DNA of 64,000 nt from Sphaerisporangium perillae (GTDB taxonomy: Bacteria; Actinomycetota; Actinomycetes; Streptosporangiales; Streptosporangiaceae), in contig NZ_JALLPO010000001.1 of NCBI RefSeq assembly GCF_023276435.1, positions 124,001-188,000 of the forward strand, read 5' to 3'. The position numbers and the translations under genes were made by a program. The notes under the pieces were generated by a model. The model was not told where the DNA came from, made no database searches, and saw nothing but the letters and a program-made list of their open reading frames with translations. Positions 31,327 through 53,266 of this stretch are shown piece after piece (the stretch's first letter is position 1; every line of letters starts with the position of its first letter).

Positions 31327-31410
31327 ATGCGTATCACTGGGGACTCGATTGCCGGGCTCATGCGGGCCTGGCTTGACGGTGTAGTACTTCGCCGGCGCGC
31401 GGGTCGCTGA
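31327..31410 (+). CDS. ilvB leader peptide
   Basis: This 27-codon ORF has tandem Val-Val-Leu codons GTA GTA CTT (31381-31389), all rare in this GC-rich genome, followed by Arg codons and the ending RRRAGR. It probably starts at or next to the transcription start, so it is translated leaderless. Ribosome stalling at the Val/Leu codons when these amino acids are scarce would change RNA folding ahead of the terminator at 31435-31473. Similar leader-peptide attenuation of ilvB operons is known in actinobacteria. Confidence 0.75.
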
Positions 31411-31473
31411 CGAAGAGTCCCCAGCCTGCGCGCAGCCCCAGCACCGCCTCGATGGCGGGGCGGGGCATTTTTT
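31337..31473 (+). promoter_or_regulatory. Attenuator RNA of ilvBHC, ending in a terminator
   Basis: Three pairings are visible: CTGGGGACTC (31337-31346) with GAGTCCCCAG (31415-31424), perfect 10 bp; GCGCGCGGG (31395-31403) with CCTGCGCGC (31425-31433), 9 bp with one G-U; and a terminator, GCCCC/GGGGC plus CCGCC/GGCGG at 31435-31466 followed by six T. The first two cross each other in order and so are alternatives or a pseudoknot. The terminator lies 40 bases before ilvB, so full-length transcription depends on preventing it. Confidence 0.75.
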
Positions 31474-50719: not shown

Positions 50720-51370
50720 TCAACGTTTGCGGATGAGGGTCAGGCCGTCGGCGATGGGCAGGAGGGTGCTGGTCACGCGGTCGTCCGCCCTGACCAGGTC
50801 GTTGAACCCGCGCATCGTCGCGGCCTCCCCGTCGGTGTAGTCGGCGACGGTGCCGTGGCGCAGCGTGTTGTCGACCAGGATGATGCCGCCGGGGGCGAGC
50901 CGCGACATGACGGCCTCGTAGTAGACCGGATAGCCGGCCTTGTCGGCGTCGATGAACGCGAGGTCCACCTCGGGCCGCACGGGGAACTCCCGCAGGGTCT
51001 CCGCCGCCGGGCCGAGCCGCAGCTCGATGAGACCGGCGACCCCCGCCCTCTCCCAGTACCTGCGGGCGATCGACGTCCATTCCGCGCTGACGTCGAAGCA
51101 GGTCAGCCTGCCGCCGGCGGGCAGCCCGCGGGCGATGCAGATCGACGAGTAGCCGGTGAACGTGCCGATCTCGACGGCGTTCCGCGCGCCGCTGATCTGC
51201 GTGATCATCGTCAGGAGGGTGCCCTGCTCGGGGGATATCTGCATCTCGGCGTCGTCACCCGCGGCCTTGAGCGTCTCCTCGGCCAGGTCCCTGAGGACGT
51301 CGTCGGGGGCCGTCGTGTGCTCGGCGGTGTACCGGGCGACGTCGGCGGTGATGAACGAGAAAGCCTTCAT
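50720..51370 (-). CDS. SAM-dependent class I O-methyltransferase
   Basis: The 216-residue protein belongs to the cation-dependent O-methyltransferase family (Methyltransf_3, caffeoyl-CoA/catechol type). The SAM site is VEIGTFTGYSSICIA, the acidic loop is CFDVSAEW, and the metal ligands are in FIDADKAGY and ILVDNTLRHG. Natural substrates in bacteria are usually catechols. This gene sits next to cimA in related actinomycetes without a known link to isoleucine synthesis. The ATG at 51370 begins the family start (MKAFSFI). Confidence 0.9.
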   Translation of the reverse strand: MKAFSFITADVARYTAEHTTAPDDVLRDLAEETLKAAGDDAEMQISPEQGTLLTMITQISGARNAVEIGTFTGYSSICIARGLPAGGRLTCFDVSAEWTSIARRYWERAGVAGLIELRLGPAAETLREFPVRPEVDLAFIDADKAGYPVYYEAVMSRLAPGGIILVDNTLRHGTVADYTDGEAATMRGFNDLVRADDRVTSTLLPIADGLTLIRKR

Positions 51371-51522
51371 GGCGTCATTGTCGTCCCAATGAGGGCCGCG
51401 AACCCGTGGATCGGCCGGTACCGGCCACCTCAGGATCTCAGTGACGGCTCGTTGCCACGCTGTCCCGAAATCTGAGATCAATGTGCCACATGGTGGCGGC
51501 GTGTGGCAGACTACGTTGCACC
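51371..51522. promoter_or_regulatory. Promoter region of cimA leader with inverted repeat
   Basis: TGCCACA (51484-51490) and TGTGGCA (51502-51508) are perfectly inverted with an 11-base spacer. A -10-like TACGTT (51512-51517) follows, five bases before the leader ATG, so the repeat sits where a repressor would block polymerase. Confidence 0.55.
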
Positions 51523-51564
51523 ATGTTCTACGGTCTGCTCATTATCAGCAGGCGCGCTGGCTGA
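51523..51564 (+). CDS. cimA leader peptide MFYGLLIISRRAG
   Basis: This 13-residue ORF has four consecutive Leu-Leu-Ile-Ile codons (CTG CTC ATT ATC) and ends RRAG, the same ending as the ilvB leader in this window. It lies between the promoter and a terminator 100 bases before cimA, and is very likely an attenuation sensor for leucine and isoleucine. Confidence 0.78.
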   Translation: MFYGLLIISRRAG

Positions 51565-51615
51565 AAAGGGACACCGCCAGCGCGCAGACCTCTCACGTCC
51601 GTGAGGGGTCTTTTT
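51532..51615 (+). promoter_or_regulatory. Attenuator RNA of cimA
   Basis: GCGCGCTGGC (51552-51561, end of the leader ORF) pairs perfectly with GCCAGCGCGC (51576-51585). GACCTCTCAC (51587-51596) pairs with GTGAGGGGTC (51601-51610), one G-U, followed by TTTTTGTTTG: a classic terminator. GGTCTGC (51532-51538, Gly-Leu-Leu codons) is complementary to GCAGACC (51584-51590), which overlaps the terminator's 5' arm, so this long-range pair and the terminator exclude each other. Confidence 0.78.
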
Positions 51616-51691
51616 GTTTGGGCCAGGTTCCGGCCCCCAGGCGGAAACCGCGCGCGGCGAACGTAGAAGAACCCCGCGAAGGAGACAAACC

Positions 51692-53266
51692 ATGGCCGAC
51701 GACCGCTTCCATGTGTACGACACGACGCTGCGCGACGGCGCGCAACAGGAGGGGCTCTCCCTCACCGTCGCCGACAAGCTCGCCGTCGCGCGCCACCTGG
51801 ACGACCTGGGCGTCGGCTTCATCGAAGGGGGCTGGCCGGGGGCCAACCCCAAGGACACAGAGTTCTTCCGGCGGGCTCAGACCGAGCTCGACCTGAAGCA
51901 CGCGCAGCTCGCCGCGTTCGGCGCGACCCGCCGGGCCGGAGTGAAGGCAGCCGACGACCCATTGGTGGCCGCTCTGCGCGAATCCGGCGCGCCGGTCGTG
52001 ACGCTTGTCGCCAAGAGTCACGACCGGCACGTGGAGCTGGCCCTTCGTACGACCCTCCAGGAGAACCTCGCGATGATCCGCGACACGGTCTCCCACCTTC
52101 GTGCGGAGGGACAGCGGGTCTTCCTCGACGCCGAGCACTTCTTCGACGGATACAGGTCCAACCCGGCGTACGCGCTGGAGGTCCTGCGCACCGCCGCCGA
52201 GGCCGGGGCGTCGGTGATCGCCCTGTGCGACACCAACGGCGGCATGCTCCCCGACGAGCTGGCCGACGTCGTGAACGAGGCCGTGGGGACCGGCGCGCGC
52301 ATCGGCATCCACTGCCACGACGACACCGGCTGCGCGGTCGCCAACTCCCTGGCGGCCGTCAAGGCGGGCGCCACCCACGTACAGGGCTGCGCCAACGGCT
52401 ACGGCGAGCGGTCCGGCAACGCCAACCTGTTCACCGTCGTCGCCAACCTCCAGCTCAAGAGGGGCTTCGACCTCGTGCCGCGGGAGTCCCTGGCCGATAT
52501 GACCCGCATCGCCCACGCGATCACCGAGGTCACCAACGTCACCCCGAACTCCCACCAGCCCTACGTCGGCGTCTCGGCGTTCGCCCACAAGGCCGGGCTG
52601 CACGCCAGCGCGATCAAGGTCGACCCGAACCTCTACCAGCACATCGACCCGTCCCAGGTCGGCAACGACATGCGCATGCTCGTCTCGGACATGGCCGGGC
52701 GCGCGTCGGTGGAGCTCAAGGGCAAGGCGCTCGGATACGACCTGACCTCGGCGCAGTCGCGCGAGCTGGTCGACCGGGTGAAGGACCTGGAGTCCCAGGG
52801 ACACACCTTCGAGGCCGCCGACGCCTCCTTCGAGCTGCTGCTCCGCGACACCGTCACCGGCGAGCGCCGCAGGCACTTCACCGTCGAGTCCTGGCGGGTC
52901 ATCGTCGAGCGCCGGCCCGGCGGGGACGTGGTAAGCGAGGCGACGGTCAAGCTGCACGCCAAGGACGAGCGCATCGTCGCCACCGGCGAGGGCAACGGCC
53001 CCGTCAACGCCCTCGACCGGGCCGTGCGCCTGGCGCTGGAGAAGCTCTACCCGGAACTCGCCGAGGTCGAGCTGATCGACTTCAAGGTCCGCATCCTGGA
53101 GGGCACCCACGGCACCGACGCCATCACCCGCGTCCTGATCACCTCCAGCGACGCCAGCGGCGAGTGGGCCACGGTCGGCGTCGGCGAGAACATCATCGAA
53201 GCCTCCTGGCAGGCCCTCGAACAGGCCGTCACTTTCGGCCTCCTCCGCGCCGGCCACCAGGCCTGA
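51692..53266 (+). CDS. cimA: Citramalate synthase
   Basis: CimA condenses acetyl-CoA with pyruvate to (R)-citramalate, starting the threonine-independent route to 2-ketobutyrate and isoleucine. The 524-residue protein has the DRE-TIM metallolyase core ([38 protein letters not shown]) and a LeuA-type dimer domain at the C-terminus that binds a feedback amino acid. GGWPG near residue 45 and the overall length fit the CimA group rather than 2-isopropylmalate synthase. ATG with GAAGGAG upstream. It is under its own Leu/Ile leader-peptide attenuator. Confidence 0.92.

Follow-up and report, generated by a model that had tools for sequence, protein, structure and literature searches.

A short stretch of DNA upstream of a citramalate synthase gene of Sphaerisporangium perillae (Actinomycetes; Streptosporangiales) raises the question of how a leader that looks like a leader-peptide attenuator, yet has no visible antiterminator, could control entry into threonine-independent isoleucine synthesis. 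The gene, cimA, occupies positions 51692-53266 on the forward strand of the window (the whole 64,000-nucleotide stretch analysed here); its product matches the TIGR00977 citramalate synthase model at 649.8 bits (cut-off 450), and it is the putative target of the elements that precede it on the same strand. These include a predicted leader peptide ORF of 13 codons (MFYGLLIISRRAG followed by stop; 51523-51564, with ATG at 51523 and TGA at 51564), whose control codons as suggested by leader comparison, ATT ATC for Ile-Ile (51541-51546), end 5 nt before a hairpin, H1 (51552-51585), in which GCGCGCTGGC (51552-51561) and GCCAGCGCGC (51576-51585) form ten base pairs without mismatch. H1 adjoins, with a spacer of 0 nt, a predicted intrinsic terminator, T (51586-51619), whose stem of 11 pairs (AGACCTCTCAC/GTGAGGGGTCT, 51586-51611) carries the tail TTTTGTTT and lies 80 nt from cimA. 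A first-pass annotation had placed an attenuator with a perfect 10-bp hairpin and a tailed terminator at 51484-51615, and each of these parts is present; its coordinates take in the unit but begin 39 nt ahead of the ORF, so as to include a -10-like element, CAGACT (51507-51512). Folding of 51523-51620 predicts three tandem hairpins, namely H0 (51535-51551), a weak CUGCU/AGCAG hairpin with the Ile codons in its loop, followed by H1 and T, at -46.8 kcal/mol compared with -29.6 +/- 3.5 for shuffled sequences (z -4.95; 0 of 200 as low). A scan of 51300-51800 returned T as the sole terminator site, a count that by itself does not exceed the shuffle level (mean 0.5, sd 0.6), and the terminator between ORF and gene is predicted from sequence, folding and covariation together.

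The genes leuB and ilvE lie upstream of the leader on the same strand, and between ilvE and the leader is a gene on the opposite strand that is O-methyltransferase-like by eye (CbiT, 20 bits, below cut-off). The leader DNA occurs in a single copy in its own genome, and the window contains no match at gathering score to Rfam (release 15); Atu_C8, at 27.6 bits against a required 50 (E 0.0012), was set aside as subthreshold. Of 142 distinct leaders, 114 have the pattern [CT]ANN[ACT]T ending 4-12 nt upstream of the start codon, compared with 5, 2 and 18 when the interval is shifted by 20, 30 and 40 nt; a near-leaderless transcript, beginning no more than a few nt from the leader ATG, is probable. 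Upstream of the -10-like element lies the stretch TGAGATCAATGTGCCA (51473-51488), of which near relatives (rows L001-L004) have altered copies; it may contain a -35 element or a regulator site.

The spread of the unit was examined at loci gathered by CimA protein, the leader itself not serving as query. The resulting CimA-selected set comprises 169 loci, of which 79 (of 80) are from named genomes and 90 are from 150 genomes of the order, the window's own included; two loci occur in both sets (L003/L124 and L021/L163). A rule requiring an H1-like hairpin with GCGC, CGCG or GCGG at its end and a U-tailed hairpin within 0-3 nt found the unit at 119 of the 169 loci, or 30 of 79 named-genome loci and 89 of 90 order loci (own genome counted), and the ninetieth order locus, L168, is cut by a contig end with its unit visible by eye. 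The 49 named-genome loci without a unit by this rule lie partly inside the class; loci without a unit include one Streptomyces copy (L032) and many from outside the class, and at some of them the upstream 250 nt resembles, by eye, the end of an ilvE-like frame. A covariance model, R1, built from 36 leaders (alignment A1) with Ile leaders as its training set, matches the scaffold in 243 of 394 genomes of the class and in 106 of 138 genera, not always upstream of cimA. Forty class matches chosen for diversity (the class set) include 37 before cimA by best panel match, two before ilvB and one before a non-panel gene. Of 159 annotated loci, 158 have a gap of 0 or 1 nt between H1 and T and one has a gap of 2 nt, under a rule that allowed 0-3 nt.

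Both hairpins covary in an alignment of upstream regions, the comparison that the first-pass annotation had proposed. The 19 pairs of H1 and T in A1 are paired in 97.8% of cells, against 89.3% in shuffles, and include 68 two-sided changes, where shuffled alignments give 18.0 +/- 3.8 and alignments with partners slid give 2-8. The upper five base pairs of H1 all covary and the lower five are invariant in A1, a constancy that is partly imposed because the leader search for A1 required the arms GCG[CT][GC] and [GC]GCGC; 89 of the 90 order loci also meet a GC-end rule of similar kind. T covaries in five of nine pairs, with a frequent U-G pair in its lower part (27 UG, 8 UA and 1 CG). H0 is a lineage-level feature: in a swap test its native energy was -2.84 kcal/mol compared with -2.35 kcal/mol after swapping (n = 55), and swaps as low as native arose in 1 of 400 (n = 77), 3 of 400 (n = 55) and 13 of 400 (n = 39). 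A role for H0 as a universal anti-antiterminator was rejected, many rows having no H0 (and a few rows being misplaced by rule), as was a kissing contact between GGAC of the H1 loop and GUCC of the T loop, which is seen by eye in many order rows and missing in L022, L024 and L151.

The predicted leader peptides carry runs of codons for the amino acid of the pathway. An ORF was found by rule in 104 of 105 distinct CimA-selected leaders, and within 25 nt of H1 there are two Ile codons in 62 of these, three in 41 and one in the remaining leader, so that 103 of 104 have two or three; the ORF picker gives preference to Ile codons and can set the start codon wrongly, the loci themselves not having been chosen for Ile. 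The last Ile codon lies 5 nt from H1 in 102 leaders and 8 nt in two. The residues that precede the Ile codons differ (GLL, SLV, SQV, RSRS), and Leu, being lineage-specific, is therefore not part of the sensor; of the Leu-Leu-Ile-Ile control run proposed in the first-pass annotation, the Ile half is retained and the Leu half is not. In the class set, which R1 selected after training on Ile leaders, an ORF is present in 39 of 40 loci and 37 of these have Ile codons, spaced from H1 by 3 nt (two leaders), 5 nt (22), 6 nt (6), 7 nt (3) or 8 nt (4). The stems and the Ile codons are thus conserved in relatives, the point on which that annotation had made its own reading depend.

The same layout stands before other genes with other codons. 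Downstream genes were assigned by best match to a five-protein panel for 62 R1 matches in 22 genomes, picked for multiple matches or as checks, and are cimA in 20 cases, ilvB in 17, leuS in 14, leuA in two and none of the panel in nine; L196 was assigned by position rather than by panel match, and eight of the 14 leuS assignments rest on identities of 36-40%. Two of the nine without a panel gene have an Ile leader, and the other seven, at E 4.6e-4 or worse, look like chance matches. Automatic annotation succeeded for 26 of the 35 non-cimA leaders (13 ilvB, 11 leuS, 2 leuA), with a codon picker that favours Ile, Leu and Val jointly. All 13 ilvB leaders contain mixtures of Ile, Leu and Val that include Val, one having Val and Leu only; all 11 leuS leaders contain a Leu run, some with adjacent Val or Ile, and both leuA leaders contain Leu runs. 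The control codons, read from sequence, thus match the downstream gene: Ile for cimA, Ile/Leu/Val for ilvB, and Leu for leuS and leuA. The H1-T gap is 0-1 nt in 26 of 26 and the last branched-chain codon lies 5 nt before H1 in 19 of 26. The leuS leader of the window's own genome (MRGRTLLLSGPRRPS followed by stop; L207, minus strand of its locus, E 9.7e-6) has H1-T and follows the same plan, and leader L304, before a leuS-like gene, translates letter for letter to the published LeuL2. As defined here, an ilvB/leuS-type H1-T unit has its codons mostly 5 nt before H1, a stop codon at or in H1 and a gap of 0-1 nt, and the cimA leaders have all three under search rules that permitted gaps of 0-3 nt and required GC-rich H1 ends.

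How might such a unit switch? The geometry of the ribosome on the leader is more constant than any alternative pairing. Relative to the start of H1, the leader stop codon lies at -2, +10, +13 or +16 in the CimA-selected set; the class set has it at -4 to -2 or from +10 to +23, and 9 of 11 leuS leaders have it at +7. Later stop codons accompany longer H1 hairpins (rho 0.72 over 73 representatives, phylogeny uncorrected), and none of these 73 has its stop codon less than 17 nt from T (range 17-54 nt), with L220, L250, L073 and L219 excluded as having H1 misplaced or no ORF by rule. The front edge of a ribosome lies about 12 nt beyond its A site, and with these stop positions a finishing ribosome would therefore cover the 5' arm of H1; the 17-nt floor agrees with a need to keep that ribosome off T. 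In classical attenuators, as PMC1183508 describes them, a fast ribosome over the control codons prevents the antiterminator from forming, and by this logic H1 would be an antiterminator or a pause hairpin that forms on an Ile stall and is removed when the ribosome finishes.

We consider it rather probable that the unit is a ribosome-mediated transcription attenuator tying cimA expression to charged tRNA-Ile, and to judge from its layout the leader probably switches the pathway on when Ile is short. The transcript would start with the leader ATG or a few nt ahead of it. When Ile is ample, a ribosome translating the leader would pass the Ile codons and reach the stop, which lies in the H1 loop or at the edge of the hairpin; there it would mask the 5' arm of H1 at a distance of at least 17 nt from T, so that T would form and transcription end. 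With Ile scarce, the ribosome would halt on the Ile codons with its front edge at or just inside H1, and H1 could form; once formed, and flush with T, it would hinder T or pause RNA polymerase, giving read-through into cimA. The most conjectural of these steps is the blocking of T by formed H1. H1 and T have no nucleotide in common, and no conserved antiterminator that would exclude T by pairing was found; mutual exclusion by pairing is thus absent, and we infer that any effect of H1 on T must be steric, through the polymerase exit channel, or kinetic. The role that fits H1 best would be that of a ribosome-gated antiterminator or pause hairpin acting on T. Against this model, a ribosome whose A site is occupied by the last Ile codon would, by the usual footprint, cover about 5 nt of H1, and H1 would therefore be weakened just when it is needed. 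Since competing pairs are absent, the claim is limited to a unit that would work like a leader-peptide attenuator and that groups with the actinobacterial ilvB/leuS-type leaders.

The search for a conventional antiterminator bears on two other readings. In this genome GGTCTGC (51532-51538), within the Gly-Leu-Leu codons, is complementary to GCAGACC (51584-51590) over seven perfect pairs, and the first-pass annotation had taken this helix for the antiterminator of a leader sensing both Leu and Ile. Of the 119 annotated CimA-selected loci, 47 retain the pairing (34 of the 105 distinct ones); nearly all of these come from the order to which the window belongs, and the pairing could have been added locally among close genera. 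It occurs, however, in none of the 40 class loci and in only 4 of 77 dereplicated leaders, against 2.7 expected when leaders and terminators are swapped, which is chance level. The Leu codons moreover vary across leaders, and GGUCUGC sits under a ribosome stalled on the control codons, all of which makes this reading very improbable; the doubt that accompanied it, over how stalling could favour antitermination, was well placed. Neither the swap test nor folding of the RNA left exposed beside a stalled ribosome, which had also been proposed as a check, revealed a conserved or consistent pairing that excludes T. A different arrangement would make H1 itself an anti-antiterminator, a stalled ribosome covering GCGCG so that the freed CGCGC of the 3' arm pairs with the 5' arm or loop of T and blocks it, with both H1 and T folding once the ribosome has gone. 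The 5-nt spacing would indeed place a stalled ribosome over roughly the lower half of H1, and in the exposed-RNA folds of many species the 5' arm of T pairs with other segments, the mean pairing reaching up to 0.65. These pairings nevertheless differ in register by lineage, average only 0.07-0.13 in L011, L020, L022, L028 and L043, and yield no conserved antiterminator; pairing of the freed H1 3' arm elsewhere was rejected as inconsistent between lineages. In 13 of 37 class Ile leaders the spacing is 6-8 nt (and 3 nt in two), which leaves less or none of H1 covered, and ten of those 13 keep the stop at -4 to -2. On this evidence an anti-antiterminator role for H1 is unlikely.

Two further readings dispense with an RNA switch gated at H1. 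T could terminate constitutively and so fix expression at a low basal level, the peptide having ceased to sense Ile and regulation lying elsewhere, for example at the promoter. It is supported by the S. coelicolor ilvB leader, for which PMC1262725 reports that changing the candidate control codons left regulation unaffected, a result that warns that units of this kind may not work as they look; however, 103 of 104 cimA leaders have retained two or more Ile codons in peptides that otherwise drift, and similar units before other genes carry other codons, which makes this reading decidedly improbable. Alternatively, the ribosome could act on T directly by being close to RNA polymerase, as happens at tR2 and pyrBI of E. 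coli. According to PMC4824070, tR2 is repressed by a nearby stop codon, with large sequence-dependent differences below 30 bp, and the stop-to-T distances found here are 17-54 nt. Such an effect predicts read-through at plentiful Ile and termination behind a lagging ribosome, the opposite of what the cell would need, and the 17-nt floor looks like avoidance of it, so that this reading too is most improbable. Direct binding of tRNA-Ile in the manner of a T-box, through complementarity to its anticodon arm beyond codon and anticodon, was put to a weak test and dropped; the two pattern hits (CTGATAAGGAAGAGG, candidate tRNA genes) lack the GCGCG that such pairing would need.

The reading of the unit as a ribosome-gated attenuator places it beside several described systems. 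The Streptomyces ilvB and leuS attenuators (IlvL, MRTRILVLGKRVG, and LeuL2, MRAVRLLLSEPR; PMC8079986, PMC1262725) are described as having, as here, a short leaderless ORF with cognate codons, hairpins and a U-rich terminator, the LeuL2 peptide being leaderless by RNA-seq (PMC8079986). R1 also matches units before ilvB and leuS-like genes; the present unit differs in that the gene is cimA and the codons are for Ile only, and leuS units start H1 with GCCGCG whereas cimA units start it with GCGCG. The three-hairpin ilvBNC attenuator of Corynebacterium glutamicum, as presented in PMC11857589, resembles the proposed cimA unit in its leaderless peptide, its ribosome gating and an antiterminator adjacent to the terminator, but its antiterminator and terminator share a GCC trinucleotide where H1 and T of cimA share none; it corresponds to the ilvB-II motif (PMC10272879). 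In the E. coli trp and his leaders (PMC1183508) a ribosome at or before the leader stop chooses between hairpins upstream of the terminator, as proposed here, but antiterminator and terminator compete for one segment, and none such was found at cimA. The actinobacterial LEU element likewise has cognate codons in a leader ORF, in this case ahead of leuA, whose product belongs to the enzyme superfamily of CimA (PMC1262725). It is described there as a candidate pseudoknot whose base stem involves the leuA Shine-Dalgarno box, unlike H1-T, and in S. lividans as being without a typical terminator (PMC8079986). In genus g49, the leuA of L274 and L277 (identified by NCBIfam at 538 and 589 bits, cut-off 532) has a Leu-Leu-Leu leader and an H1-T unit where other actinobacterial leuA has the LEU element of PMC1262725.

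The kind of element is therefore known, as are its ilvB and leuS members; what is new is the cimA member, its spread, the shared layout with gene-matched codons and the missing antiterminator. The 2005 survey (PMC1262725) and the S. lividans survey (PMC8079986) name trp, ilvB, leuA, leuS and others; the eight leader peptides named in the latter do not include cimA, and its main text contains neither "cimA" nor "citramalate". Searches of the open-access literature found no cimA attenuator. In much of one class, a likely tRNA-Ile sensor would thus govern the entry step of threonine-independent isoleucine synthesis, and cimA, ilvB, leuS and some leuA leaders are united in one layout that differs in control codons. 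A broader proposal, which we hold only tentatively, is a modular actinobacterial attenuator class in which the codons before H1 retarget the switch and an abutting, ribosome-gated H1 antiterminates with no competing pairs; if true, a hairpin that directly adjoins a terminator stem would act as an antiterminator in its own right. The question of how actinobacterial attenuators switch with no visible antiterminator is in any case reduced to a 90-nt element, one that may also offer a practical handle in strains producing branched-chain amino acids or antibiotics derived from them.

Some related leaders show features of their own. In genus g101, L270 and L272 have a three-Ile leader and H1-T before a non-panel gene; the L270 leader reads MFTPRIII followed by stop, L246 is at the same place, and the gene that follows the L270 leader encodes what is by eye a small stand-alone ACT-domain-like protein, with no NCBIfam match. 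The window itself contains an ilvB leader (31327-31473) that the automatic rule did not annotate, where by eye Val-Val-Leu codons are followed, after 5 nt, by a GCGCGC hairpin that adjoins a terminator; in its predicted fold a 10-bp long-range helix, CUGGGGACUC/GAGUCCCCAG, displaces the GCGCGC hairpin.
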